Shown piece after piece: positions 2,893 through 56,762 of a stretch of 64,000 nucleotides of DNA; the first letter of the stretch is position 1, and the number at the start of each line of letters is the position of its first letter. The notes beneath the pieces were generated by a model. It was not told the DNA's origin, did no database searches, and was given only the letters and a program-made list of their open reading frames with translations. The DNA is from Thioalbus denitrificans. GTDB lineage: Bacteria; Pseudomonadota; Gammaproteobacteria; DSM-26407. The position numbers and the translations under genes were made by a program. The DNA lies in assembly GCF_003337735.1 (NCBI RefSeq), contig NZ_QPJY01000001.1, positions 364,650 to 428,649 of the forward strand, written 5' to 3'.

Positions 2893-3165
2893 CTAGTGTA
2901 CTGCGTCACTCTTGGAGGTACTTTCAGAGCCCCCCGAAAGTGCCAGGACAAGGCGCAGTGCGCAGGCAATGGTTGTTTCCCTTGTCAAGCGCTGCAACGC
3001 GGTCATGGCGCTTTCGGGGGGCTCCCTGCGGGCGAGCCGTTGGCCGGCCATCTGCGGCGTTGCGCTTGCTTGAAAGGGGGCCTGCCATTCCTGCGCAAGC
3101 GCGCCTTGCATCTGACCGGCCAACGACTCGCTGAATGTGCCTCCAGGAGTGACGCAGTACACTAG
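2893..3165. mobile_element. MITE-like element with CTAG-bounded terminal inverted repeats
   Basis: Non-coding element of 273 bp. The left end reads CTAGTGTACTGCGTCACTC and the reverse complement of the right end reads identically for its first 19 bases. Similarity then continues imperfectly to about 38 bases. Inside is a second inverted pair, GAGCCCCCCGAAAG near 2929 and its complement near 3015. Both outer ends carry CTAG, which could be a 4-bp target duplication or a palindromic terminus. No transposase is present; the short ORFs inside are compositional. Related copies occur at 33522-33579 and 43958-44023. Confidence 0.75.
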
Positions 3166-9648: not shown

Positions 9649-9658
9649 GGGGCGGTCG

Positions 9659-9871
9659 TTAATAGACAGGATTTACAGGATTGTCAGGATTATTGCATTG
9701 TGCATCTGGTATCGGGTTCGAGACAGATGCTTGGGCGTCGGTGACTGGTTTGGATGCCAGCAGGTCTCTGGCAGGATGCGTGGCGCTCATTCCTGCCGGC
9801 GAGAAGGGCGAATCCACGGCTGACAGCCTTTCTTCCCGAATCCTGTCAATCCGGTAAATCCTGTCTATTAA
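9659..9871. repeat. ACAGGATT-type inverted-arm repeat element
   Basis: The left arm at 9659-9691 reads TTAATAGACAGGATTTACAG and continues through three 9-nt units. The right arm at 9839-9871 is its inverted copy, ending AAATCCTGTCTATTAA. About 147 bases of unrelated sequence lie between the arms. No gene is present. It lies directly upstream of pdxA. Confidence 0.85.
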
Positions 9872-9879
9872 CCCAGATT

Positions 9880-17555: not shown

Positions 17556-18368
<813 letters not shown>

Positions 18369-23182: not shown

Positions 23183-24283
23183 ATGAACATGCCTGAACAG
23201 CTTTCCAGCCGCAGTCTTGCCCTGGTCCTGGCCGCCCTCCTGGGGCTGGCCCCGGTTCAGGCCCGTGCCGAGGCGCCGGCCACCCCGACGGCCGATCCGC
23301 GCCAGTCCTGGACCGTCAGCTTCACCCTCGAGAACGACCTGTTCGCCGAAACCGACCAGGCCTACACCAATGGCGTCGGCGTCAGCTGGATTTCCCCGGA
23401 CACCAGCGACTATCTCAACGATCCCAACATGCCCGCCTGGGTGCGCTGGGTGAACCGGGAGCTGGAGTGGCTCCACGGCGGGCTGACCGGCGACGCTGCG
23501 TTGCAGCGCAACCTGGTCATCAGCCTGGGGCAGAAGATGTTCACCCCCGCCGATCCCGTCCCCACGGCGCTCATCGAGGACGACCGTCCCTACGCCGGCT
23601 GGCTCTACCTCGGCTTCGGCTACCATGCCCGCAGCCGGCTGCGCATGGACTCCCTGGAGTTGAACCTGGGGGTGGTGGGACCCTCGTCCCTGGCCGAGGA
23701 GGCGCAGAATTTCATCCACGACCTGCGCGGGTTCGAGCGCTTCAACGGCTGGGACAACCAGCTCTCCGACGAGCCCGGGGTGCAGCTCATCTACGAGCTC
23801 AAGCGGCAACTGCTGCCGGACTGCATCCTGCCCGTGGGAATGGAGTGCGACCTGATCGGCCACGCCGGCTTCAGCCTCGGCAACGTGGCCACCTACCTCA
23901 ACGCCGGCGGCGAGTTCCGCCTCGGCTGGGACATCCCCGCGGACTTCGGCACCTCCTCCCTGCGTCCCGGGGGCAGCAACAGCGCGCCCAGCTCCCGCTG
24001 GGATCCGCGCCTGCGCGAACTCCCCTTCGGCGGCATCCACGCCTTTGTCTCCCTCGACGGCCGCCTGGTGGGGCGCGACATCACGCTGGACGGCAACACC
24101 TTCGAGGACAGCCACTCGGTGGACAAGCGCTACCTGGTGGGCGATGCCGCCGTGGGCGTGAGCGGCCTGTTCTACGGCTTCAAGCTCTCCTTCGCCCGGG
24201 TCTTCACCAGCCAGGAGTTCGAGGGCCAGGACGATCCCCACACCTACGGCTCCGTCTCCCTCTCCTACAGCCGGCCGTTCTGA
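23183..24283 (+). CDS. lpxR: Lipid A deacylase LpxR-family outer-membrane protein
   Basis: 366 aa. The signal peptide (RSLALVLAALLGLAPVQARAEA) is followed by a DUF2219 beta-barrel. Family motifs are SFTLENDLFAETDQAYTNGV, which carries the conserved N-D residues, and LIEDDRPYAGWLYLGFG. The C-terminal strand GSVSLSYSRPF ends in Phe as expected for a barrel. LpxR removes the 3'-acyloxyacyl chain of lipid A in Salmonella; the same role here is inferred. The ATG at 23183 was chosen for the signal peptide, 29 bases after djlA. Placement near lptD and djlA fits an envelope gene group. Confidence 0.88.
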   Translation: MNMPEQLSSRSLALVLAALLGLAPVQARAEAPATPTADPRQSWTVSFTLENDLFAETDQAYTNGVGVSWISPDTSDYLNDPNMPAWVRWVNRELEWLHGGLTGDAALQRNLVISLGQKMFTPADPVPTALIEDDRPYAGWLYLGFGYHARSRLRMDSLELNLGVVGPSSLAEEAQNFIHDLRGFERFNGWDNQLSDEPGVQLIYELKRQLLPDCILPVGMECDLIGHAGFSLGNVATYLNAGGEFRLGWDIPADFGTSSLRPGGSNSAPSSRWDPRLRELPFGGIHAFVSLDGRLVGRDITLDGNTFEDSHSVDKRYLVGDAAVGVSGLFYGFKLSFARVFTSQEFEGQDDPHTYGSVSLSYSRPF

Positions 24284-24286
24284 TTT

Positions 24287-24568
24287 CTCACCACAAAGAC
24301 GTTCACCGCGAAGGCACGAAGGGAAAAAGACCAAAGATCTTGTATCCGCAGATTACGCAGATTACGCCGATTGGTTTGTTGCTGTCGGGGTTCCCAACAG
24401 AAAATCCCCCGCCTGTGGCTTGAGCTGAATGTTCAGCCCTTACCGGCCTGGTTGGAATGTGACTTCACTCCCTGCCCCGCCAGGCGGTACCGGAAAATCT
24501 GCGTAATCTGTGTAATCTGCGGATAGTTGTCATTCTTTTATTTTTATCTTCGTGCCTTCGTGGTGAAT
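24287..24568. repeat. Nested inverted-arm elements: CACGAAG outside, CGCAGATTA inside
   Basis: The outer left arm (24287-24322) has CACCACAAAGA, CACCGCGAAGG and CACGAAGGG units. The outer right arm (24547-24568) is the inverted TCTTCGTGCCTTCGTGGTGA. Inside it the inner left arm TATCCGCAGATTACGCAGAT starts at 24343, and the inner right arm GTAATCTGTGTAATCTGCGG ends at 24522. The inner loop is about 120 bases. No gene lies between lpxR and the convergent copD-like gene. Confidence 0.88.
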
Positions 24569-24598
24569 CGAAACGGCGCTCGGGGATCTGGCCCGGGG

Positions 24599-25051
24599 TC
24601 AGAGGAGGTAGCGGCCGGTGCCGCCGAGGACGGAGGTGACGAGCCCGAGCACCAGGTTGGTGGCGATGAGGCGGCGGATCATGGCCAGGTGGGGCGCGGC
24701 GGCGGGGATGTCGCCGGCGTCCACGGCCCGGCCCAGGCGGCGGTAGGGGGCGAACCAGAGGTAGGCGAAGATGGCCGCCATCACCAGCCCGAGGCCGGAC
24801 ATGATGTGCACGTGCAGGCCGGCCTTGCCCTGGAAGGCCACCAGGAAGATCCAGTAGCCGGTCACGAGGAGGATCGCCACCGACGCCCAGACCCAGGGGA
24901 AGAAGCCGGCGAAGACCCGGCGCATGAGGGGCAGGCGCAGGGGCGGTTCCAGCAGCGCGTTGGCGGCCGGGCGCAGCGCCATGTGGGCGAAGAACATGCC
25001 GCCCACCCAGATGATGGCGGCGAGCAGGTGCAGGGCAATGGCGATGGTCAT
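24599..25051 (-). CDS. CopD-family integral membrane protein
   Basis: 150 aa with four or so membrane helices. The first holds the CopD-like pattern HLLAAIIWVGGMFFAHMALR; later ones are WVWASVAILLVTGYWIFLV, HIMSGLGLVMAAIFAYLWF and TNLVLGLVTSVLGG. Conserved histidines in helix 1 and in HVHIMSG could bind heme or copper, but no copC partner is present. The start is fixed by GGAGGACCC directly before the ATG at 25051. Function is uncertain. Confidence 0.8.
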   Translation of the reverse strand: MTIAIALHLLAAIIWVGGMFFAHMALRPAANALLEPPLRLPLMRRVFAGFFPWVWASVAILLVTGYWIFLVAFQGKAGLHVHIMSGLGLVMAAIFAYLWFAPYRRLGRAVDAGDIPAAAPHLAMIRRLIATNLVLGLVTSVLGGTGRYLL

Positions 25052-25235
25052 GGGTCCTCCTTGGCTCGATCCGGCGCCGGCGGGGGTGCCGGCTCCGGCC
25101 CTATTCTGACCAGCGCGCTCAGGAAGTCCAGCGGCGGAGGCTGCAATGCGCCCCCGGTTGCGGTAAATTCTCCGGTTCACGTGCCCGCGTGCGGGCCGAA
25201 ATACAACCATCAGCGAGATTTGGAGAGTCAAGAAC

Positions 25236-25928
25236 ATGGCCGAGAACCTCATCGCCCCCTCCATCCTGTCGGCGGATTTCGCACGGCTCGGCCAGGAGGT
25301 GGAGAACGTGCTGGCGGCCGGGGCCGACATCGTGCACTTCGACGTGATGGACAACCATTACGTTCCCAACCTGACCATCGGCCCGCTGGTGTGCGAGGCG
25401 CTGCGCAAGCACGGCGTCACCGCGCCCATCGACGTGCACCTGATGGTCAAGCCGGTGGATCGCATCATCCCCGACTTCGCCAAGGCCGGCGCCACTTACA
25501 TCACCTTCCACCCGGAGGCCTCCGAGCACGTGGACCGGACCCTGCAGCTGATCCAGGGCGAGGGCTGCAAGGCGGGCCTGGTGTTCAACCCGGCCACCCC
25601 CCTGGACGTGCTCAAGTACGTCATCGACAAGGTGGACATGGTGCTGCTGATGTCGGTGAACCCCGGCTTCGGCGGCCAGAGCTTCATCATGAGCGCCCTG
25701 GACAAGCTGCGCGAGGCGCGGGCCATCATCGACGCCAGCGGCCGTGACATCCGGCTGGAGATCGACGGCGGGGTGAAGGTGGACAACATCCGCGCCATCG
25801 CCGAGGCCGGCGCCGACACCTTCGTGGCCGGCTCCGCCATCTTCGGCGCCGGCAAGGACGGCGACCCCAACCGCTACGACAGCGTCATCGCCGCCATGCG
25901 CGCGGAGCTGGCCCAGGCCGGGAAATAG
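25236..25928 (+). CDS. rpe: Ribulose-phosphate 3-epimerase
   Basis: Interconverts ribulose 5-phosphate and xylulose 5-phosphate in the Calvin and pentose phosphate cycles. The 230-aa TIM barrel has [16 protein letters not shown], the metal-binding [14 protein letters not shown] and DVHLMVKP, the flexible loop [12 protein letters not shown] and the catalytic-Asp strand [12 protein letters not shown]. Given the RuBisCO gene later in the window, it likely serves CO2 fixation as well. Confidence 0.97.
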
Positions 25929-25935
25929 CTTTTTG

Positions 25936-26106
25936 TTATCCGCAGATTACGCAGATTACGCCGATTGGTATGAGGGAAACCTTGTTCGCGTCGGTGTCCC
26001 GCCGCTCCGGGCTGGAGGGCCCTCCAGCAGGAGCGCCGGCCGGGGGGCAGGCCGGGTTGCCATCCGGTTCCTTCAGGAATCGGTGTAATCTGCTTAATCT
26101 GCGGAG
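25936..26106. repeat. CGCAGATTA-type inverted-arm repeat element
   Basis: The left arm TTATCCGCAGATTACGCAGA starts at 25936 with three 9-nt units. The inverted right arm GTGTAATCTGCTTAATCTGC ends near 26104. The loop of about 110 bases holds a GC-rich palindromic stretch (GCTGGAGGGCCCTCCAGC). It separates rpe from gph. Confidence 0.85.
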
Positions 26107-26148
26107 AGAAATGGTTTTTTCGCTTTTTTTGGGATTGAGAAACAGACG

Positions 26149-26829
26149 ATGAGCCTGAAACGCCCGCAGATGGTGCTGCTGGACCTGGACGGTACGCTGG
26201 TGGACAGCGTGCCGGACCTGGCCGCGAGCGTGGACTGGATGATGGGCGAGCTGGGGCTGCCCGCCTGCGGCGAGACGCGGGTGCGCGACTGGGTCGGCAA
26301 CGGGGTGGAGCGGCTGGTGATGCGCGCCCTCACCGGCGAGCTCTGGGCCGATCCGCCGGAAGAGGCGTTCGCGCGCGCCCTGCCGCTGTTCCGCACCGCC
26401 TACACCGAGCACAACGGCCGCCACAGCCGCCTCTTCCCCGGCGTGGCCGGCGGGCTCGAGTACCTGCGCGGGGCGGGCTACCGGCTCGGCTGCGTCACCA
26501 ACAAGGCCGAGGCCTTCACCCTGCCCCTGCTGCGGGCGCTGGGCATCGACGGTTACTTCGGCATCGTGGTCAGCGGCGACACCCTGCCGCAGAAGAAGCC
26601 CGATCCCGCGCCGCTGCTCCACGCCGCCGAACGGCTCGGCGTGGCCCCGGCCCGGGCGCTGATGGTGGGCGACTCGGAGCACGACGTGAAGGCGGCCCGG
26701 GCGGCGGGGTTCCAGGTGGCGTGCGTCAGCTACGGCTACAACCACGGCCGCGACATCGCCACCGCCCAACCGGATGCCGTGGTGGATTCCCTCGAGCAAC
26801 TGCGCACCCTGCTGGAGGCGGCGGCCTGA
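26149..26829 (+). CDS. gph: Phosphoglycolate phosphatase
   Basis: HAD-superfamily hydrolase that removes phosphate from 2-phosphoglycolate, the product of RuBisCO oxygenation. 226 aa with motif I LLDLDGTLVDSVPDL, motif II CVTNKAEAF, motif III QKKPDPAPLLHAAERLG and motif IV MVGDSEHDVKAARAAG. The rpe-gph-trpE order is a known gammaproteobacterial arrangement. The gene is separated from rpe by the repeat element. Confidence 0.95.
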   Translation: MSLKRPQMVLLDLDGTLVDSVPDLAASVDWMMGELGLPACGETRVRDWVGNGVERLVMRALTGELWADPPEEAFARALPLFRTAYTEHNGRHSRLFPGVAGGLEYLRGAGYRLGCVTNKAEAFTLPLLRALGIDGYFGIVVSGDTLPQKKPDPAPLLHAAERLGVAPARALMVGDSEHDVKAARAAGFQVACVSYGYNHGRDIATAQPDAVVDSLEQLRTLLEAAA

Positions 26830-26858
26830 ACATGAACGACCGCACGGAGAGCGCCCCG

Positions 26859-26897
26859 ATGTGGCGCCTGGACAAGCGATGGCGATGGCGTTGCTGA
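26859..26897 (+). CDS. Candidate Trp-rich leader peptide upstream of trpE
   Basis: A short frame starting at the ATG at 26859, eight bases after GGAG, encodes MWRLDKRWRWRC and then stops. Three of 12 residues are Trp. An in-frame ATG at 26832 would make it 21 aa. It ends 42 bases before trpE. The composition is what a trp-operon leader needs. However, I see no Rho-independent terminator between it and trpE, so classical attenuation is not shown. It could act by ribosome stalling or be accidental. Confidence 0.4.
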   Translation: MWRLDKRWRWRC

Positions 26898-26939
26898 CGC
26901 AGTGCCCCTTCGTTCGTCCCCTTTTCCGTGAGGTGAGTC

Positions 26940-28436
<1,497 letters not shown>

Positions 28437-28446
28437 GGGCACGACC

Positions 28447-29028
28447 ATGCTGCTGATGATCGACAACTACGACTCCTTCACCTACAACCTGGTGCAGTAC
28501 TTCGGCGAGCTGGGCGCCCAGGTTCAGGTCTACCGCAACGACCAGATCACGCTGGAGGCGATCGAGGCGCTGGCACCCGCCCACCTGGTCATCTCCCCCG
28601 GCCCCTGCACCCCCCGCGAGGCGGGCATCTCGGTGGCGGCGATCCGCCACTTCGCCGGGCGCATCCCGATCCTGGGGGTCTGCCTGGGGCACCAGAGCAT
28701 CGGCGAGGCCTTCGGCGGCAAAATCGTGCACGCCCGGGAGGTGATGCACGGCAAGACCTCGCTGATCCATCACACCGACACCGGGGTGTTCCACGGCCTC
28801 GACAACCCCTTCGAGGCCACCCGCTACCACTCTCTGGTCATCGAGCGGGCGAGCCTGCCGGAGTGCCTGGAGATCACCGCCTGGACCGCCGATGCGTCCG
28901 GCGCGATGGACGAAATCATGGGGGTCCGCCACCGCGAGCTGCCGGTGCAGGGCGTGCAGTTCCACCCCGAATCCATCCTCACCCGCCACGGCCACGACCT
29001 CCTGCGCAACTTTCTGGAGGGGGTTTGA
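28447..29028 (+). CDS. trpG: Anthranilate synthase component II (glutamine amidotransferase)
   Basis: Hydrolyses glutamine and passes ammonia to TrpE. The 193-aa class I amidotransferase starts [19 protein letters not shown] and has the nucleophile loop [17 protein letters not shown]. The catalytic His-Glu pair lies in [15 protein letters not shown] frequent second role in 4-amino-4-deoxychorismate synthesis (PabA) is possible because no separate pabA is seen. A CACGAAG repeat element separates it from trpD. Confidence 0.96.
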
Positions 29029-29043
29029 GCTGGTCGTTTTCAA

Positions 29044-29190
29044 ATTCTCACCACGAAGGCACGAAGGACGCGAAGATCAAGAAGAAGAACACCATAAGAG
29101 CGCCCATGGCGCTTGGCGGGTTGTCGAAGACAGATGCTGATTTCAGCTATCTTCTGCTTTTCTTCGTGATCTTCGTGACTTCGTGGTGAA
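29044..29190. repeat. CACGAAG-type inverted-arm repeat element
   Basis: The left arm TTCTCACCACGAAGGCACGA and following units (CACGAAGGA, CGCGAAGAT) cover 29044-29082. The inverted right arm TCTTCGTGATCTTCGTGACT starts at 29161 and continues into TCGTGGTGAA. The loop is about 80 bases. It is inserted within the trp gene group, between trpG and trpD. Confidence 0.88.
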
Positions 29191-29216
29191 CCGGTACTGA
29201 TTCAGGGGGAAACAAC

Positions 29217-30245
29217 ATGGACATGCAGGGTGCGATTCGGGCGGTGACCGAGCACCGCAACCTCACCCACGAGGAGATGGTGGAGGTGATGCGCCTCATC
29301 ATGACCGGGGAGGCGACGCCGGCGCAGATCGGCGGGTTCCTCATCGGCCTGCGCATGAAGGGCGAGACGGTGGCCGAGATCGCCGCCGCGGCCCAGGTGA
29401 TGCGCGAACTGGCCACCCGGGTGGCGGTGGACGAGCCGCACCTGGTGGACACCTGCGGGACGGGGGGCGACGCCGCCCACACCTTCAATATCTCCACCAC
29501 CGCCGCCTTCGTGGCCGCCGCCGCCGGGGCGCACGTGGCCAAGCACGGCAACCGCTCCGTCTCCAGCAGCACCGGCAGCGCCGACGTGCTGGAGGCCGGC
29601 GGGGTGCGCCTGGAGCTCTCCCCGGAGCAGGTGGCGGGCGCCATCCACGAGGTGGGGGTCGGCTTCATGTTCGCCCCCATGCACCACGGCGCCATGCGCC
29701 ACGCCATCGGCCCGCGCCGGGAGATGGGGGTGCGCACCCTGTTCAACCTGCTGGGACCGCTGACCAACCCCGCCGGGGCGCCCAACCAGCTGCTGGGCGT
29801 CTTCAGCCGGCAGTGGGTGGAGCCGGTGGCCGAGGTGCTGCACTTCCTCGGCAGCCACCACGTGCTGGTGGTGAATGCCGAGGACGGCCTCGACGAGATC
29901 AGCATCGGCGCCCCCACCTACGTGGCGGAGCTGAAGGACGGGCAGGTCAGCACCTACACCATCACTCCCGAGGAGTTCGGCCTCGAGCGCTCGCCGCTGG
30001 AGGGCATCCGGGTCCACGACGCCGCCGGGAGCCTCGCCATGATGCGCTCGGTGCTGGACAACCAGCCCGGGCCGGCCCGGGATATCGTGGCGCTCAATGC
30101 CGGCGCCGCCGTCTACGTGGCGGGCCTGGCCGGGAGCCTGAAGCAGGGCGTGGAGCTGGCGCTGGCGGCCATCGCCAGCGGCGAGGCCCAGCATCGCCTC
30201 GAGGCGCTGGTGGACTACACCGCGCGCGTGGCGGTCTCCTCATGA
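29217..30245 (+). CDS. trpD: Anthranilate phosphoribosyltransferase
   Basis: Joins anthranilate to PRPP, second step of tryptophan synthesis. 342 aa with the PRPP-binding loop [18 protein letters not shown], then [20 protein letters not shown] and [14 protein letters not shown]. The C-terminal lobe holds [19 protein letters not shown]. The ATG has an AGGGGGAAA ribosome site. Its stop overlaps the trpC start (ATGA), indicating translational coupling. Confidence 0.97.
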
Positions 30246-31048
30246 GCGGCGACACCCCGGATATCCTGCGCCGGATCCTGGCGCGCAAGGCCGAGGAGGT
30301 GGCGGAGCGCTCCGGGCGCGTCGCCCTGGACGCGCTGCGCGGCCGGGTCGCCGGCGCCCCCGCGGCGAGGGACTTCGTGGGCGCCCTGCGCGGGCGCATC
30401 GCGGCGGGCCAGCCCGGGGTGATCGCCGAGATCAAGAAGGCCTCGCCCAGCAAGGGCGTCCTGCGCGCGGAGTTCCACCCGGCGGAGATCGCCGCCAGCT
30501 ACGCCCGCGGCGGGGCGGCCTGCCTGTCGGTGCTCACCGACGTGGATTTCTTCCAGGGCGCCGACGCCTACCTGCAGGAGGCGCGGGCGGCCTGCGCGCT
30601 GCCGGTGCTGCGCAAGGATTTCATGATCGACCCCTACCAGGTCTACGAGGCGCGGGTGCTGGGGGCCGACTGCATCCTGCTCATCGCCGCCGCCCTGGAC
30701 GATGCACGAATGCACGGCCTTGCGGAGCTGGCCCGGGACCTGGGCATGGCGGTGCTGGTGGAGGTGCACGACGCCGCCGAGCTGGAACGGGCGCTCGCCC
30801 TGGATACGCCCCTGGTGGGCATCAACAACCGCGATCTGCGCACCTTCGAGACCCGGCTGGAAACCACCCTGGAGCTGCTCGATCGCATCCCGGACGACCG
30901 CATCGTGGTCACCGAGAGCGGCATCCTCGACCCCGCCGACGTGGCGCGGATGCGCGAACACGGCGTCAACGCCTTCCTGGTGGGCGAGGCCTTCATGCGC
31001 GCCGAGGACCCGGGCGAGCGCCTGGCGGCGCTGTTCGGGATCGGGTAA
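30242..31048 (+). CDS. trpC: Indole-3-glycerol phosphate synthase
   Basis: Forms indoleglycerol phosphate from CdRP. 268 aa, single-function TrpC of normal length; trpF is not fused and not seen in the window. TIM-barrel motifs are [64 protein letters not shown] and VVTESGIL. It starts four bases inside trpD. Downstream it is bounded by repeat elements. Confidence 0.97.
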
Positions 31049-31053
31049 GGCCT

Positions 31054-31323
31054 GGAATAGACAGGATTCACAGGATTTACAGGATAAGGACCAAAGGCGA
31101 TTAACCGCAGATTACGCTGATTGTGCAGATTGTTCGTGGAGCTGGAGAGCCGGTTGCCTGAACCTGTATTCTGCCGTTCCGGGCCGAAGGGCGTCTCAGG
31201 GAGGCGGTTCAAAGCGACGCAGCCGCCTGCTGGACCGGCGGCCACGGGGCCAAGCGCGACAAGCGGTTCGGAGGAGCAGTCCGCGACCATGAATCCGGTC
31301 AATCGTGTAAATCCTGTCTATTT
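31054..31323. repeat. ACAGGATT-type inverted-arm element with an inner CGCAGATTA arm
   Basis: The outer left arm AATAGACAGGATTCACAGGA starts at 31055 with three units. The outer right arm (31293-31323) is AATCCGGTCAATCGTGTAAA followed by TCCTGTCTATT. Immediately inside the left arm is a CGCAGATTA-type arm (31102-31131) that lacks an inverted partner. The outer right arm ends five bases before the ATG of the YkgJ-like gene. Confidence 0.82.
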
Positions 31324-31327
31324 CAAT

Positions 31328-31582
31328 ATGAACTGCCGGCCCGGCTGCGCGGCGTGCTGCATCGCGCCTTCCATCTCCTCGCCGATTCCCGGCATGCCCC
31401 AGGGCAAGCCGGCGGGGGTGGCGTGCGTGCAGCTGGACGGGGATCTGCGCTGCCGGCTCTTCGGCCGCCCGGAGCGACCGCGGGTCTGCGGCGGCCTGCG
31501 GCCGTCGGCGGAGATGTGCGGGGAGGATGCGGAAGCCGCCCGGGCGGGCCTGGCGCTGCTGGAGGCGCTGACCGCGCCTTGA
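31328..31582 (+). CDS. YkgJ-family cysteine-cluster protein
   Basis: 84 aa with the YkgJ (UPF0153-type) cysteine pattern: CRPGCAACC near the N-terminus, then [20 protein letters not shown] and EMC further on. These probably ligate a metal ion or cluster; function is unknown. No ribosome site is present because a repeat arm ends five bases upstream of the ATG. It may therefore be translated poorly or as a leaderless message. The short length is usual for this subfamily. Confidence 0.75.
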
Positions 31583-31585
31583 TGT

Positions 31586-31844
31586 AAATGGACAGGATTT
31601 ACAGGATTGATCTGTTTGACCGCAGATTACGCAGATTCAAGTTAAAGAGCAGGAGAGGCCGTGGTTCAGCCGGGACACCCGGGCCAGGTCACTGGGGGGA
31701 TGGCCCCACCCCTTTCACAGACGCCCGGGGTTGCCACTGCACGTCTACCGTGTCTCCAAATAATCTGCGTAAATCAGCGTAATCTGCGGTTAACAGGTTT
31801 TTTGTTTTTTTCTCCTGTACATCCGGTTAATCCTGTCAATTTAA
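31586..31844. repeat. Nested inverted-arm elements: ACAGGATT outside, CGCAGATTA inside
   Basis: The outer left arm AAATGGACAGGATTTACAGG is at 31586, and the outer right arm TTAATCCTGTCAATTTAA ends at 31844. Inside are the inner left arm GACCGCAGATTACGCAGATT at 31618 and the inner right arm AATCTGCGTAAATCAGCGTA continuing to TCTGCGGTTAA (31793). The layout mirrors 24287-24568 with a different outer family. It fills the gap between the convergent ykgJ-like and crp genes. Confidence 0.88.
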
Positions 31845-31852
31845 CAAAACGA

Positions 31853-32488
31853 TCAACGCGGCTGGAACACCACGATGGTCTTGCCGTGGGCGGTGATGAG
31901 GCCCTGCTCCTCGAGGCTCTTGAGCACCCGGCCCACCATCTCGCGGGAGCAACCCACGATGCGGCCCAGCTCCTGGCGGGTGACGCGGATCTGGATGCCG
32001 TCGGGGTGGGTCATGGCGTCGGGTTCGTGGCACAGGTCGAGCAGGGCGCGGGCCACGCGGCCGGTGACGTCCATGAAGGCCAGGTCGCTCACCTTGCGGC
32101 TGGTGTTGCGCAGGCGCAGGGCCATCTGCGAGGCGAGCTGGAACAGGATCTCCGGGTCGTCGGTCACCAGCTTGCGGAAGTTGCTGTAGCTGATGAGGGC
32201 CACCTCGCAGGCGGTCTTGGCCCGGATCCAGGCGCTGCGGTTGGCCTCTTCCTGGAACAGGCCCATCTCGCCGAAGAAGTCGCCGGGATTGAGGTAGGCG
32301 AGGATGATCTCGCGACCGTTCGGATCCTCGATGAGAACGCTTACCGAACCCTGGAGAATGAAGTAGAGCGTGTCGGGCTTGTCCCCGGCGCGAATGATGG
32401 TGTGCTTCGCCCCGTAGCGCCGACGATGGCAATGGCTGAGAAAACGCTGGATGGCGTTGTCGGCTGGATTGTCGCCCGGTTGCGCCAT
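31853..32488 (-). CDS. crp: cAMP receptor protein (Crp/Vfr)
   Basis: A 211-aa transcription regulator. The N-terminal cyclic-nucleotide domain has [33 protein letters not shown] and the cAMP-contact segment [19 protein letters not shown]. The latter is nearly identical to E. coli CRP and Pseudomonas Vfr. The C-terminal helix-turn-helix is [25 protein letters not shown]. It is divergent from the osmC-like gene, like crp-yhfA in E. coli, and near trpC and speD as vfr is in Pseudomonas. Confidence 0.95.
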
Positions 32489-32617
32489 GTTGTTGTGTCT
32501 CCAAGAGTTGCAATCGACGAGAGTATGCCACAGCCTCGATAGGGGCTTCCATGACTATGGCATGGCGGCAGGATGGCTGTGCTAAGCTTCCGCCTTCTGC
32601 AGGCGGAGGAGAGGATC

Positions 32618-33040
32618 ATGGAGGCGCGGATCAAATGGGTGGAGGGGGCCACCTTCGTGGGCGAGTCCGGCAGCGGGCACGCGGTGGTGATGGACGGTCC
32701 CCCCGACATGGGCGGGCGCAACCTGGGCGTGCGCCCGATGGAGATGGTGCTGCTGGGCATGGGCGGTTGTACCGCCTTCGATGTCGTGCACATCCTGAAA
32801 AAGGCGCGCCAGCCGGTGACCGACTGCGTGGTGGAGCTCAACGCCGATCGGGCCGAGGCCGAGCCCAAGGTCTTCACCCGCATCCATGCCCACTTCATCG
32901 TCACCGGCGCGGGCCTCAAGGAGGCCCAGGTGGCCCGGGCCATCCAGCTCTCGGCCGAAAAGTACTGCTCCGCCTCCATCATGCTCGGCGCCACCGCCGA
33001 GATTACCCACGACTACGAAATCCGCGCCGCGGGCGCCTGA
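32618..33040 (+). CDS. OsmC-family protein
   Basis: 140 aa, OsmC/Ohr fold of the YhfA type. The conserved helix LGMGGCTAFDVVHILKKAR holds the first peroxidatic-type Cys, and AIQLSAEKYCSASIMLGATA holds the second. These two cysteines usually reduce organic hydroperoxides. The ATG at 32618 was chosen for GGAGGAGAGG just upstream; a longer reading from 32573 lacks this. Divergent from crp. Confidence 0.9.
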   Translation: MEARIKWVEGATFVGESGSGHAVVMDGPPDMGGRNLGVRPMEMVLLGMGGCTAFDVVHILKKARQPVTDCVVELNADRAEAEPKVFTRIHAHFIVTGAGLKEAQVARAIQLSAEKYCSASIMLGATAEITHDYEIRAAGA

Positions 33041-33077
33041 GCCCGATGTCGTGGGCCGGCGCCGGGGAGGGAATGGC

Positions 33078-33482
33078 ATGAGCACGCCCCCGGACCATCT
33101 GGGCATGCGCCACCTGGCCCTGCAGGTGCGGGATCTCGCCGCCTGCGAGGCCTTCTACACCGGGCTCCTGCGGCTGCGGGTGGAGTGGCGTCCCGATCCG
33201 GACAACGTCTACCTGACCTCCGGCAACGACAGCCTCGCCCTGCACCGGGTGCCCGACCCGGCCGCACCGCCCGCGGGGCAGCGGCTCGACCATCTCGGTT
33301 TCATCCTCCCCGATCCCGCCGCGGTGGATGCCTGGCACGGGTATCTGCTGGCCCGCGGCGTGAAGATGCGCGCCGGGCCCCGTACCCACCGCGACGGGGC
33401 CCGCAGCTTCTACTGCGAGGACCCGGAAGGGAACGTGGTGCAGATGATTTATCATCCCCCTTTGGCCCCTGATCGTGGATAA
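33078..33482 (+). CDS. VOC-family (glyoxalase-like) protein
   Basis: 134 aa with two beta-alpha-beta-beta-beta halves of the vicinal oxygen chelate fold. The first metal ligand is in GMRHLALQVRDLAACEAFYT. Others follow in RLDHLGFILPDP, and the C-terminal SFYCEDPEGNVVQMIYHPP carries the conserved Glu. The substrate is unknown; a lactoylglutathione lyase role is not established. It follows osmC after 37 bases and is probably co-transcribed. Confidence 0.88.
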   Translation: MSTPPDHLGMRHLALQVRDLAACEAFYTGLLRLRVEWRPDPDNVYLTSGNDSLALHRVPDPAAPPAGQRLDHLGFILPDPAAVDAWHGYLLARGVKMRAGPRTHRDGARSFYCEDPEGNVVQMIYHPPLAPDRG

Positions 33483-33521
33483 TTGCGCCCGCCGGCAGGA
33501 ATTCCCCCTTAGCGGTTGCTG

Positions 33522-33579
33522 GTGTACTGTTTCACTCTTGGAGGGCTCTGAAAGCACCTCCAAGAGTGAAACAGTACAC
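33522..33579. mobile_element. Minimal MITE hairpin with perfect 23-bp stem
   Basis: GTGTACTGTTTCACTCTTGG plus AGG at 33522-33544 is repeated as an exact reverse complement at 33557-33579, leaving a 12-bp loop. The stem matches the terminal repeat of the element at 2893-3165 apart from TT for GC within the repeat. This looks like two ends brought together with the interior lost. It lies between the VOC gene and speD and could also act as a transcription terminator. Confidence 0.8.
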
Positions 33580-33723
33580 TAGTGCAGGGGGAGCGTGCCG
33601 GTACCGATCCTGCGGGTGGGTCAGCCCCCTCGCCGGTAGTGTTTCACCGCAGTCGCGGGGCGGATGGCGTCCAGGGACTTACCGGGCGTTGTTTCAAGGT
33701 CCCTGCATCGGGAGGGTTCGAGG

Positions 33724-34545
33724 TTGGCCAAGACATCCAGAAAGCTGAAGCTCTACGGCTTCAACAATCTGACCAAGTCGCTCAGTTTCAACATCTACGA
33801 CATCTGCTACGCGCCCACGCCCAAGCAGCGGCGCGAGTACATCGAGTACATCGACGAGGTATACAACGCCAAGCGCCTGACCCAGATCCTGACGGATGTG
33901 GCCAACATCATCGGCGCCAACATCCTCAATATCGCCCGCCAGGACTACGAGCCCCAGGGCGCCAGCGTCACCATCCTCATCTCCGAGGAGCCGCTGGCCT
34001 CCGAGCAGCTCTCCAACACCGAGGCGCCGGGACCGATTCCGGAAACCGTGCTGGCGCACCTGGACAAGAGCCACATCACGGTCCACACCTATCCCGAGAG
34101 CCATCCCGAGGACGGCATCAGCACCTTCCGCGCCGATATCGATGTCTCCACCTGCGGACGCATCTCGCCGCTGAAGGCCCTGAACTACCTGATCCACGCC
34201 CTGGAGTCGGATATCGTCTACATGGACTACCGGGTGCGGGGCTTCACCCGGGACATCTCCGGCAAGAAGCACTTCATCGACCACAAGATCAACTCCATCC
34301 AGAACTTCCTGTCCCGGGACACCCGCGACCGGTACCAGATGATCGACACCAACGTCTACCAGGAGAACATCTTCCACACCAAGATGATCCTGAAGGACTT
34401 CGATCTCAACAACTACCTGTTCGGAATGGAGAAGGAGGATCTCTCGGTGCGCGAGGTGCAGCGCATCAAGAAGCTGCTGCGCTGGGAGATGCTGGAGATC
34501 TTCTATGGCCGCAACATGAACAAGCTGCCGAAGTTCATGGATTGA
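33724..34545 (+). CDS. speD: S-adenosylmethionine decarboxylase, E. coli type
   Basis: Makes decarboxylated SAM, the aminopropyl donor for spermidine. About 273 aa. The proenzyme cleaves itself at the Lys-Ser of [16 protein letters not shown], so Ser becomes the pyruvoyl group. Other family blocks are [39 protein letters not shown] and [20 protein letters not shown]. The frame opens further upstream, but the TTG at 33724 ([13 protein letters not shown]) has GGGAGGG about seven bases ahead and fits the family N-terminus. An ATG at 33664 is the alternative. Confidence 0.94.
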
Positions 34546-34559
34546 ATCCCGCCGGAACG

Positions 34560-34590
34560 AAAAAGCCCGGCCGAGACGGCCGGGCTTTTT
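34560..34590. terminator. Bidirectional Rho-independent terminator
   Basis: A five-A run, the 9-bp stem GCCCGGCCG/CGGCCGGGC with an AGA loop, and a five-T run lie 15 bases after the speD stop. The A run on the other side makes it usable for the convergent DsrE-like gene too. Confidence 0.95.
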
Positions 34591-34608
34591 CATTTTCGCC
34601 GCCGGGCT

Positions 34609-35049
34609 TCAGGGGCGCACGTAGGCGTAGCCCTGCTCCTGCAGCTCCATGATGCGGGTGACCCCCGCGGGAACCACCTTGACCCCTTCGGTGAGCTCCG
34701 GCATCTTGCCGGTCTTCTTCTCGATGCCCTTCATGGTGTTGTTGCAGGCGCTGAAGGTGATGTCCTGCATGGCCAGGCTCTGCACCCGGCCGGACAGTTC
34801 GTTCTCCCGGGTGAGCATGCCGAGGCCGGGGCCGTAGGCGACGATCTCGATCTCCACGTTGTCCATGCCGAGATCCTTCTGCAGGTTCACGGCGTTGTTC
34901 ATCGCGATGGTCTGGGTCTGGGGATCGTCGGTGCTGACCTGGATCACCAGCTTGTGGGGCTTGCCCTCGGCAAAGGCCGGCAGGGCGACAGCCACGGTGA
35001 GCAGGGCGGCGAGAAGCAGGCGGGTTAGGGCGACGCTGTTGCGGGTCAT
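34609..35049 (-). CDS. Periplasmic DsrE-family sulfur-relay-like protein
   Basis: 146 aa. A signal peptide (LLLAALLTVAVALPAFAEG) is followed by a DsrE/F-fold domain: HKLVIQVSTDDPQTQTIAMN, VEIEIVAYGPGLGMLT and the single conserved Cys in FSACNNTMKGIEKK. Cytoplasmic DsrE proteins carry persulfides in sulfur oxidation; this exported form could bind sulfane sulfur or metal in the periplasm. AAGGAGAG precedes the ATG. It shares a terminator with speD. Confidence 0.85.
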   Translation of the reverse strand: MTRNSVALTRLLLAALLTVAVALPAFAEGKPHKLVIQVSTDDPQTQTIAMNNAVNLQKDLGMDNVEIEIVAYGPGLGMLTRENELSGRVQSLAMQDITFSACNNTMKGIEKKTGKMPELTEGVKVVPAGVTRIMELQEQGYAYVRP

Positions 35050-35315
35050 GGTTCAACTCTCCTTCCATCAGGCGGTGGGACCGTTCCGGGCTTCTGTCGG
35101 CGCAGGATAACGGTGGTCAATCGGAAACCGCGTTACCGGCGCCCGGCAAGGGGCGCGGCCACCCGGTCGCCGCTGTCAGTAGACCAGCAAACTCGGTGCC
35201 ATCTTTCCGGGTTTTGCAACCTGTTGATTTGTATTCTTATTGATTTCCGCACCGGGAAGGCGTGCGGCAATCTGCAATAGGCGGAGTTGCAGATTGAAAC
35301 CGCGGGACGGCTGCT

Positions 35316-35960
35316 TCAGAGATGATAGGCGGTGCGGGTCATCACCCTGGAAACCAGCCCCATGAGGCGGCGCACGGGCTCGGGCAGGGGGGCCGCACCG
35401 GCTTCCAGGGCGGTGTCGGCGTGGCGGGCCTCGTCCTCGCGCATCCGTTCCAGGATGGCGCGGCTGCGTCCGTCGCCGGGCGGCAGCTGGGCCAGGTGGT
35501 CGTCGAGGTGCCTCACCACCTGGCGCTCGGTCTCCACCACGAAGCCCAGGCTCCACTTGTCCCCGGCCCAGCCGGCGAAGGCGCCGATGGCCAGCGAGCC
35601 GGCATACCAGGCCGGGTTGAGCCAGCTCTTGTGGCTGCCGAGCTCCGCCAGGCGCTGCTCGCACCAGAGCAGGTGATCGTTCTCCTCCTGCGCCGCCCGC
35701 GCCATCCGGTCGCGGACCCCCGGCAGCCGGGCGGTCAGGGCCTGGCCCTGGTAGAGAGCCTGGGCGCAGACCTCGCCGGCATGGTCGACCCGCATCAGGC
35801 CGGCCGCGTGGCTCCGTTCGCCCTCGGTCAGCTCCGCATCGGGAACGGCGCCGGCGGGATTGGTGCGCTCGGTGGCGCGCGGGCGGCCGAACAGGGTGCG
35901 CAGCCCCTGGTCGAGCTCCATCAGCAGGCGGTCGGGAAAGCTGTAGTGGCGGTGTCTCAT
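35316..35960 (-). CDS. coq7: 3-demethoxyubiquinol 3-hydroxylase (O2-dependent)
   Basis: Diiron monooxygenase for the C6 hydroxylation of the ubiquinone ring. 214 aa. Diiron ligands are visible in [46 protein letters not shown] and [12 protein letters not shown]. Membrane-associating helices include [17 protein letters not shown]. The speD-coq7 closeness resembles Pseudomonas. It needs O2 and so complements the O2-independent UbiTUV set later in the window. Confidence 0.95.
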
Positions 35961-36044
35961 GGCGGCATCGGCGGCGGTTCGGTTTCGGCTTCCGCTCCCG
36001 GAACGTTAACATGCACCCCGGGACGGGCGGACAGGATAGAGAAG

Positions 36045-36452
36045 ATGATAACCCATCTGAGCGTCAGCGCGCGGGGCCAGGGACTGGTGGAGTTCACCGG
36101 CCAGGTGGAGGCGGCCGTGCGCGAATCGGGCATCCGCGAGGGGCTCTGCACCCTGTTCCTGCAGCACACCTCCGCCAGCCTGATCATCCAGGAGAACGCC
36201 GACCCCTCGGCCCGTCGCGATCTCGAGCGCTGGCTCGACCGCCTGGTGCCGGAGGGGGACGCCCTCTACAGCCATACCCTCGAGGGCGCCGACGACATGC
36301 CCGCCCACATCAAGGCCGTCCTCACCGCCGTCAGCCTCTCCATCCCCGTCACCGGCGGCCGCCTGGCGCTCGGCACCTGGCAGGGCGTCTACCTCTGGGA
36401 GCACCGCCACGCCGCCGGCCCGCGCCGGGTGGTGGTGCACATCGGGGAGTGA
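36045..36452 (+). CDS. YjbQ-family protein (secondary thiamine-phosphate synthase)
   Basis: 135 aa of the UPF0047/YjbQ family. Conserved blocks are LFLQHTSASLIIQENADPSA, LEGADDMPAHIKAVLTAVS, GRLALGTWQGVYLWEHR and the C-terminal RRVVVHIG. E. coli YjbQ has weak thiamine-phosphate synthase activity; the physiological role is unclear. The start at ATG 36045 gives MITHLSVSARGQG. Divergent from coq7. Confidence 0.92.
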   Translation: MITHLSVSARGQGLVEFTGQVEAAVRESGIREGLCTLFLQHTSASLIIQENADPSARRDLERWLDRLVPEGDALYSHTLEGADDMPAHIKAVLTAVSLSIPVTGGRLALGTWQGVYLWEHRHAAGPRRVVVHIGE

Positions 36453-36461
36453 GGGCTCGTT

Positions 36462-36716
36462 TGAATAGACAGGATTCACAGGACAAAGGACAAAGACCGG
36501 TTATCCGCAGATTACGCGGATTACGCAGATTAATGGTTTGATGGGCGACGGGCAGGGGAAAGATCCGGGTACGGATCTGTTCATGAGATTGCCCCGTCAG
36601 AAGCGGGGACAGCGGCAGATGCGCTGGTAGAGTTCCGGCGTCACCAGGTGACCCCGGCATGGTCCCGAATAGAGCGTCTTACTTACGTCCTGTTAATCCT
36701 GTAAATCCTGTCTAAA
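36462..36716. repeat. ACAGGATT-type inverted-arm element with an inner CGCAGATTA arm
   Basis: The outer left arm GAATAGACAGGATTCACAGG starts at 36463. The outer right arm TCCTGTTAATCCTGTAAATC, continuing CTGTCTAAAC, ends near 36716. Right after the outer left arm sits a three-unit CGCAGATTA arm (36500-36532) without an inverted partner, the same layout as at 31054-31323. It lies between yjbQ and the convergent moaA. Confidence 0.83.
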
Positions 36717-36733
36717 CAAACGTCTTTCAACAA

Positions 36734-37720
36734 TCAGCCGCCGGTCTGGGACATGAAGCGGACCACCTGGCCGGGGGTCTCGTTGAAGGTGTGGCGTTCG
36801 GGCTTGCGGGCGATGGCCGCGGCCACGGCCGAGCGCAGTTCCGCGTCGTCCGCGCCGGCGCGCAGCAGCGGGCGCAGCTCCACCCGGTGGTCCTGGCCCA
36901 GGCACAGGTAGAGGGTGCCGTCCACTCCCAGGCGGACGCGGTTGCAGGTGTCGCAGAAGTGCTGGGACAGGGGGGTGATGAAGCCGATGCGGAGATCGGT
37001 GCCCTCCACCTGCACGTAGCGGGCCGGTCCGCCGCCGTTCATCACCGCCGGCAGCAGCCGGTAGTGGCGTTCGAGGCGCTCGCGCACCTCCCCGAGATCC
37101 ACGTAGTGGGCGCCTGCCGCGCTGCCGGTGGCGCCTACCGGCATGGTTTCGATGAAGCGCAGGGTGAAACCGTTGTCGAGGCAGAAGGCCACCATGGCCT
37201 CCACCTCGTCGAGGTTGATGCCGCGCATCGCCACCATGTTGATCTTGATGGGTTCGAAGCCGGCCCGACGGGCGGCGTCGAGCCCCTCCAGCACCCGCCG
37301 CAGCTGCCCGCCGCCGGTGATGTCGTGGAAGCGATCCGCGCGCAGGGTGTCGAGGCTCACGTTCAGGCGGGTCACGCCCGCACGGCGGAGGGGGGCGGCC
37401 AGCCGCGCCAGCCGCATGCCGTTGGTGCTCAGGGAAAGGTCCTCGATACCCGGCAGGGCGGCGAGGCGGCCGGCAATCCGCGGCAGGTCGCGGCGCAGGA
37501 GCGGTTCGCCGCCGGTGAGGCGGACCCGGCGCACGCCCAGTCGGGCGAAGGCGCCCGTCACCCGCTCGATCTCCCCGGCGGTCAGCCAGTGCTCCGGCGT
37601 CTCGTAGTCGGAGAACCCCTTCGGCATGCAGTAGAAGCAGCGCAGGTCGCAGCGGTCCGTCAGTGACAGGCGCAGGTACTCGACGCGGCGTCCAAAGGGA
37701 TCGAGCAGTGGCGTATCCAT
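36734..37720 (-). CDS. moaA: GTP 3',8-cyclase
   Basis: Radical SAM enzyme for the first step of molybdenum cofactor synthesis. 328 aa with the N-terminal cluster motif CDLRCFYCMPKGF, the SAM-binding VRLTGGEPLLRRDLP and LSLSTNGMRLA. The second-cluster cysteines lie in QHFCDTCNRVRLGVDGTLYL with a following C. The C-terminus ends in the functional Gly-Gly. The cofactor is needed by the SoeA-type molybdoenzyme in this window. Confidence 0.96.
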   Translation of the reverse strand: MDTPLLDPFGRRVEYLRLSLTDRCDLRCFYCMPKGFSDYETPEHWLTAGEIERVTGAFARLGVRRVRLTGGEPLLRRDLPRIAGRLAALPGIEDLSLSTNGMRLARLAAPLRRAGVTRLNVSLDTLRADRFHDITGGGQLRRVLEGLDAARRAGFEPIKINMVAMRGINLDEVEAMVAFCLDNGFTLRFIETMPVGATGSAAGAHYVDLGEVRERLERHYRLLPAVMNGGGPARYVQVEGTDLRIGFITPLSQHFCDTCNRVRLGVDGTLYLCLGQDHRVELRPLLRAGADDAELRSAVAAAIARKPERHTFNETPGQVVRFMSQTGG

Positions 37721-55512: not shown

Positions 55513-55597
55513 CAAGACTCGAACCACGAAGGACACGAGGCGCACGAAGTGACAGGCCAATTGGCCCTATCCATCCCTTCGTGTCCTTCGTGGTTTG
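55513..55597. repeat. Compact CACGAAG-type inverted-arm repeat
   Basis: The left arm has AACCACGAAGGACACGAGGC and GCACGAAGT (55522-55550). The inverted right arm CCTTCGTGTCCTTCGTGGTT ends at 55596. Only about 25 bases lie between, centred on the palindrome GGCCAATTGGCC. This is the smallest complete element in the window. It lies between the convergent tlpA-like and soeC genes and could act as a terminator. Confidence 0.85.
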
Positions 55598-56670: not shown

Positions 56671-56690
56671 TCGTAAACTCCAGGTTCCAG

Positions 56691-56762
56691 TTTCGAGTGA
56701 CGAGTAGCGAGGTCTCGGATCCGGCGCTTCCCCTCGCAACTCGTCACTCGTTACTCGCAACT
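56691..56762. repeat. ACTCG-type inverted-arm repeat abutting the soeB stop
   Basis: The left arm TTTCGAGTGACGAGTAGCGA (56691) is mirrored by the right arm of CTCGTCACTCGTTACTCGCA ending at 56762. The 7-nt units are ACTCGTC, ACTCGTT and ACTCGCA. The right arm runs into the soeB stop codon (CTA on the plus strand, 56761-56763). It splits the soe operon between soeB and soeC. Confidence 0.82.

Follow-up and report, generated by a model that had tools for sequence, protein, structure and literature searches.

Nested inverted-repeat arrays of Thioalbus denitrificans as putative composite mobile elements associated with GxxExxY genes

At positions 24287-24568 of the 64,000-nucleotide stretch of the Thioalbus denitrificans genome analysed in this work (hereafter called the window), an inverted-repeat element with both of its arms lies wholly inside the loop of another such element, built of CACGAAG units. 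The first-pass annotation of this DNA listed three further cases in which the same family was the inner one, and ascribed the fixed order either to successive insertion with a target preference or to a composite unit, and not to random slippage. The question is thus how one repeat family came to be enclosed by another, and what might move or rearrange the resulting nests.

Arm families and the order of their nesting

Three arm families were considered, labelled A (CACGAAG), G (ACAGGATT) and R (CGCAGATTA). The arms of all of them are inverted and consist of head-to-tail 8-9-bp units, mostly 2-5 per arm, and the gene-less elements are intergenic cassettes of about 120-300 bp which have the inverted arrays as their ends. 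The 4.14-Mb genome contains 347 matches of the R 18-mer and 302 of the G 18-mer (both with at most 3 mismatches), and because the same patterns read backwards occur only 1 and 0 times, respectively, a chance origin of the R and G arms is excluded; for the A 17-mer (at most 2 mismatches) 164 matches were counted, the backwards-read pattern giving 2. In 1.15 Mb of this genome, a sample which was picked around the matches and from which the element density is not to be read, 150 paired elements were identified, i.e., many short, intergenic, palindromic elements, those of the window lying between ORFs. No Rfam family matched window positions 24000-37000, and a literature search with the repeat words returned nothing relevant.

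A further inverted family, near CTAGTGTACTGYKTCACTCTTGGAGG, was noted at window positions 2893-3165 and 33519-33582; one of its members is a palindrome with a 12-nt loop and one has a 203-nt interior holding more inverted repeats.

All four cases listed by the first-pass annotation were recovered (Table 1). At 24287-24568, the A arms enclose the complete pair of R arms, and a degenerate CACAAAG unit is present directly outside the left outer A arm, at 24292. The same nesting with G outside was found at 31585-31843, and in the elements 31053-31325 and 36458-36722 a left R arm lies inside the G arms, no right R arm being found in either of them.

Table 1. Arms, elements and enclosed genes (positions are those of the window unless marked as own genome)
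Feature	Position	Strand
Left outer A arm, CACGAAG units	24302..24328	+
Left inner R arm, CGCAGATTA units	24343..24372	+
Core of A(R) nest	24373..24495	.
Right inner R arm	24496..24525	-
Right outer A arm	24541..24567	-
Left outer G arm of G(R) nest, ACAGGATT units	31585..31607	+
Left inner R arm of G(R) nest	31616..31637	+
Right inner R arm of G(R) nest	31772..31793	-
Right outer G arm of G(R) nest	31821..31843	-
Left G arm, element with one R arm	31053..31085	+
Single R arm directly inside left G arm	31104..31135	+
Right G arm of element 31053-31325	31293..31325	-
Left G arm, element with one R arm	36458..36483	+
Single R arm directly inside left G arm	36504..36533	+
Right G arm of element 36458-36722	36697..36722	-
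G element, inner arms not detected	9658..9872	.
R-variant element, CCGCAGATTTGCGTTGATT arms	17557..17699	.
R element; different R-type element at same site in sister species	25939..26105	.
A element; 100% identical in sister species	29048..29189	.
Short A element	55520..55595	.
Intact GxxExxY gene inside A arms	C1:721731-722078, own genome	
Intact GxxExxY gene inside G arms	C2:711945-712271, own genome	
Intact GxxExxY gene inside R-variant arms	C2:734509-734850, own genome	

The inside/outside order proved to be fixed, as had been claimed. Within the 1.15-Mb sample all 61 nested pairs followed one order and none was reversed, which clearly departs from equal frequencies of the two orders; there were 31 A(R), 23 G(R) and 7 A(G) nests, with A outside, G in the middle and R innermost. 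In a looser scan of adjacent arms on the same strand, the order A>R was counted 54 times, G>R 30 times, A>G 9 times and G>A 3 times, and at least one of the last-named is an interleaved arrangement (A+ G+ A- G-). R was innermost in 84 of 84 arm pairs and never outside. Inner arms were also present in most of the ca. 230-bp A elements that had seemed to be plain; they are of the R variant CCGCAGATTGGCGTTGATTGACGTTGATT. In the genome of the sister species, G001, 18 A(R), 10 G(R) and 2 A(G) nests were found and none with a reversed order.

The nested A..R pattern was also found in Bacteroidota, Planctomycetota, Chloroflexota, Nitrospirota and Verrucomicrobiota, as well as in cyanobacteria, WOR-3, Omnitrophota and others; since the search demanded the A..R order, these matches attest the presence of the pattern and not a bias of its order. 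At places in other phyla that were unselected by the search pattern, A>R was observed 8 times versus 3 times for R>A. The strict order is therefore limited to this genus, and elsewhere there is a bias.

Two unusual arrangements were noted in other hosts. In Flavobacterium sp. CF108 (L211:4260-4311 and the next 230 bases) a triple nest is present, composed, from the outside in, of a CACGAAG-type arm, CACAGATTA arms and CACGAATTA/CACAAATTT arms, and in an Anaerolineales MAG (L186:3835-4164) a nested arm pair occurs three times with an exact spacing of 145 bp, as if an element had been amplified head to tail.

Composite units and changes between sister species

The linkers between outer and inner arms bear directly on the choice between a composite unit and successive insertion. 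The linkers of the 31 A(R) nests have a median length of 28 bp on either side, and those of both sides follow one A-rich consensus, roughly CACGAAGAAAAGGCAAAGACTGTTTAACC. The left linkers align with a score of 8.3 to right linkers of other elements, 7.7 to their own and -2.8 to shuffled ones; insertion of R at arbitrary points of an A loop therefore does not fit. Furthermore, A(R) copies with near-identical cores retain both arm layers. In the case of G(R), an R arm was detected on one side only in 20 of the 23 nests, which thus are not explained by simple insertion of a complete R element.

For the comparison with G001, whose genome is a 510-contig assembly, the flanks served to match 51 sites (89-100% identity); 48 of these, with flank identities of 90-100%, were of comparable length. 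At 24 of these 48 sites the core is the same (often identical), at 7 it is the same and inverted, and at 17 the contents are different. The inverted cores, which means an opposite orientation of the interior in related genomes, show 83-98% identity to the reverse complement, and at the four of these seven sites that were inspected the reverse-complement alignment is unbroken from outer arm to outer arm, including linkers and inner arms, which places the inversion breakpoints at the outermost A or G arms. Some of the flips could be choices of the G001 assembly, despite the 2-17% divergence of the inverted cores.

At the 17 sites with different contents, the outer arms of A(R) and G(R) elements are still recognisable and mostly belong to the same family, and the R-only elements at such sites mostly have other R-type arms too. 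In the window, the core of the A(R) nest is replaced in the sister species, where the outer arms are the same and the inner arms are R-type, and at the G(R) nest the G arms are common to both species and the interior is not. As the outer arms are stable at shared sites, capture of R elements inside A and G elements is favoured over later acquisition of outer arms. Random slippage is excluded as the source of the order, in line with the first-pass annotation, yet the arms do change their length between the species by whole 9-bp units, e.g., at C4:36584 and at 31053, where the left G arm of the sister species is one unit shorter.

Sequential insertion with a target preference, in which R elements enter A and G elements and each nest arises independently, would account for the fixed order and for conserved outer arms around different interiors at shared sites. 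Nevertheless, it would have to explain linkers of one consensus and similar short lengths which are not arbitrary fragments of A loops, composites with the same core that recur at several sites with both layers, and the mostly one-armed G(R) nests, and we consider it quite unlikely. The composite unit, directly supported for A(R) by the common linkers, the joint inversion and the two-layer copies, is the alternative that stood; successive insertion may be retained as the origin of the composites, given the conserved outer arms and changing interiors, and we found no locus at which one species has just the outer element and the other has gained a clean insertion within it.

A presence/absence difference was observed for the A(R) element C7:102508, which is absent in G001, where its flanks join as GACGGGG/TGAATCCCGCG, and which has a near-copy 3.2 kb away. 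At this single empty site no clear target-site duplication was found, and the terminal TGAA of the element is present in the empty site as well; insertion and loss are indistinguishable there. No insertion specific to the sister species turned up at the 40 sites for which the sample contains both flanks; the G001 contigs were chosen largely for holding arms, and the sample therefore gives no estimate of the share of empty sites. Pairs of elements with similar cores lie within 6.5 kb of each other in 10 of 23 cases; over all pairs of elements it is 68 of 10,878 (p 5e-17). This suggests that elements are copied mainly to sites a few kb off.

GxxExxY genes enclosed by the arrays

Two protein families, GxxExxY (PF13366) and PF05635, were chosen for testing in view of where such repeats occur. 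The 12 genomes tested all have the nested pattern; PF13366 was found in every one of them and PF05635 in 10. In T. denitrificans, one intact GxxExxY gene was found within arms of each family (Table 1), so that A, G and R all have a candidate trans-acting enzyme; the three proteins score 134-146 bits against TIGR04256 (cut-off 35) and 125-143 bits against PF13366 (cut-off 22). Genes of this family lie between inverted 8-10-bp arrays in many phyla. Of 299 separately drawn genomes of the host phylum, 57 have the gene, and nearly all of the loci with enough flank (n=29) are placed between such arrays. Inverted flanking arrays scoring at least 14 were found at 47 of the 54 GxxExxY genes examined in other genomes, the control scores having a median of 9 and, bar one outlier per control set, not exceeding 13; summed over these 54 loci, the repeat period is 9-10 bp. 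In the open-access literature no link of TIGR04256/PF13366 to repeats was found, the family being mentioned only once per paper.

The alignment of GxxExxY proteins revealed conserved residues E27, Y30, D67, E77, K79, Q91 and Y95, of which K79 is invariant and E27, D67 and E77 are at least 90% conserved. They fit a PD-(D/E)XK active site, and the protein is a predicted nuclease. No solved relative was found by sequence search. In the structure model (mean pLDDT 93.5) the best folds indicated by Foldseek were alkaline and lambda exonucleases and a Cas4-like protein; these structural matches are weak (best E 1.3e-3) and consistent with a putative PD-(D/E)XK nuclease fold.

When arm types were placed on a tree of 38 GxxExxY proteins, 5 changes were required (the minimum being 4), whereas shuffled labels needed 15.7 on average and never, in 200 shuffles, as few as 5; the types were read from the arm sequences, partly by eye, with 4 rows excluded from the count. 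The same arm word groups proteins of unrelated hosts, and several types may occur in one host; judging from these sequences, arm type tracks the protein clade and not the host. For instance, one clade (YAIIGAAMxVH...NFG) with R-type arms joins L309 (Methylophaga) with L304, L308, L319, L322, L327 and L428, its hosts being Methylophaga, Chloroflexota, Lentisphaeria, Planctomycetota and Bacteroidota, so arm word and protein seem to move as a pair. The usually adjacent genes fabD and fabG of Sphingomonas parapaucimobilis are separated by a GxxExxY gene that has A-type arms.

Between the A-type gene and its counterpart in G001, 4 of 369 bases differ, and the R-type gene is represented in G001 by a truncated, decayed remnant. 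R-arm matches number 91 in 3.0 Mb of G001 versus 347 in 4.14 Mb here, and this one case, from an incomplete genome, agrees with a dependence of the arms on the gene. Some relatives have the gene and few R arms, their own arms being of other types.

It might be argued that the arrays are passive inverted repeats, flipped, converted and resized by host recombination and replication slippage, with the GxxExxY genes as passengers. With their 30-60 bp the arms could be substrates of homologous or short-repeat recombination, inversion and conversion are possible without a dedicated enzyme, and in the arm-rich genome G048 (same class, rated 100% complete) about 25 R-arm matches were counted and no PF13366 gene was detected. 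However, the match of arm type and protein clade extends across phyla, the gene lies within arrays in nearly all cases examined, all three arm families here enclose an intact copy, and a complete A(R) copy present here is missing in the sister species; we therefore regard passive repeats as an unlikely explanation.

A homing-type selfish gene, i.e., a nuclease cutting gene-free array alleles, repair of which copies the gene-bearing allele, with the gene-less copies as targets, would agree with the single small nuclease gene within its own recognition-like array and with one site carrying either the gene or its decayed remnant. However, intact gene copies number 3, gene-less sites hundreds, and no gene is carried by the exchanged contents, which makes homing very unlikely.

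Two other origins were considered and rejected. Gene-less and gene-bearing elements have the arms alone in common, and on this account the former are not deletion products of the latter, as MITEs may be. A phage origin was dismissed in view of the absence of GxxExxY from 50,697 phage records and the occurrence of the nested pattern in only 3 viral contigs; given this scarcity, the elements are chromosomal.

At PF05635 (four-helix-bundle) genes the repeat period is a clear 7 bp. Several 7-bp arrays were noted in the material. The window contains an inverted 7-bp array element of CGAGTGA units (56682-56762), and four PF05635 genes of the same genome (C1:430354-430668, C1:820291-820605, C2:672495-672803 and C5:217119-217421) lie by 7-bp arrays (CCGGTGG, GTGATGG, GTGTTCC and GGTGAGG), one of these genes beginning 1.7 kb beyond the window end. 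At the intergenic site C4:44370-44530 (L106:9350-9515), T. denitrificans has TTTTCAG 7-bp repeats and a palindrome, TTTAATTCGGGGACAGTTTACTTATTTCC, and the sister species has GTGATGC-type 7-bp repeats instead.

Proposed mechanism and relation to known systems

The reading that we favour, with a probability of roughly 0.6, is that the nests are copies of composite, gene-less, REPIN-like elements with invertible interiors, served in trans by GxxExxY nucleases. An A(R) unit possesses two-layer arms, i.e., an A array, an A-rich linker and an R array. We infer both the action of the nuclease on the arms and the order of assembly: the PD-(D/E)XK enzyme would recognise its own array and cut at or near it, acting in trans as RAYT would for REPINs, and repair between inverted or nearby arrays would result in inversion, gain or loss of units, replacement of contents and new local copies. 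Recombination would be located at the outermost arms, the interior being flipped, exchanged or copied, mostly a few kb away. An R-type element may have been captured early in the genus inside A and G ends, the composites having then multiplied as units, and nesting would equip a single cassette with the ends of two enzymes. With about even chances, there may be two parallel, phylum-spanning classes of mobile or invertible DNA, namely GxxExxY proteins with 8-10-bp arrays (one word per clade) and four-helix-bundle proteins (23S rRNA IVP-type) with 7-bp arrays, the nested cassettes carrying the ends of two enzymes.

REPIN-RAYT systems comprise hundreds of short intergenic palindromic elements with ends that correspond to the flanking sequences of a rare, presumably trans-acting gene. 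Here, too, there are hundreds of elements with ends like the flanks of a rare gene. However, the genes inside the arms belong to PF13366/TIGR04256, with a putative PD-(D/E)XK fold, and not to the HUH tyrosine (Y1) transposases, of which RAYT is one; the element ends are head-to-tail 8-9-bp units and not REP hairpins with a GTAG-type foot; and the tandem 8-10-bp arm arrays, the inverting interiors and the nests are further differences. MITEs are small gene-less elements with terminal inverted repeats, such as were found on the small gene-less elements described here, which differ in sharing their arms alone with the gene-bearing element and in having arrays of variable unit number; at the single empty site no clear target duplication was seen. 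Invertons, in turn, are stretches of DNA between inverted repeats that occur in both orientations in related genomes, as was observed at 7 of the 48 shared sites; here, in contrast, there are hundreds of sites with arrays as ends, and the contents are also replaced and copied.

Paired arrays of the same anatomy were described in Geobacter metallireducens as class 1-3 'global regulator binding sites', with three tandem 8-9-bp units (consensus TCTCCGTS[Y]), forming opposite-strand pairs at a variable distance and accompanied by 7-bp and 8-bp classes (PMC2700814); there, they were read as regulator sites, without a linked gene family or movement. The GGGAATC heptamer arrays of Xanthomonas, with many convergent inverted pairs, were studied as quadruplex repeats and reported to be generally not associated with mobile elements (PMC4692102); they resemble the arrays presented here in the convergent inverted pairs and differ in the 7-bp units. 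No link of the Geobacter or Xanthomonas arrays to GxxExxY or four-helix-bundle genes was found in the open-access literature, and earlier work elsewhere is possible. As binding of IHF/HU-like proteins was proposed for the very similar paired arrays of G. metallireducens (PMC2700814), the elements might be regulatory or nucleoid-protein sites, which would suit their intergenic location near neighbouring ORFs in the window and their anatomy, as in the Geobacter 'class 2' sites. Such sites leave inversion, content replacement, local copies, enclosed nuclease genes and the match of arm and protein unexplained, and we attach hardly any probability to them.

The results suggest a widespread, undescribed kind of mobile DNA. 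If true, the elements served by GxxExxY nucleases would provide a testable function for two very widespread, functionally uncharacterised families, GxxExxY and four-helix-bundle proteins, the recognition code being directly testable because the arm word and the protein clade match. They may also explain multicopy intergenic repeats called regulator sites or quadruplex repeats in genome papers, and would constitute a route by which short intergenic stretches are inverted, exchanged and copied locally at hundreds of sites of one genome.
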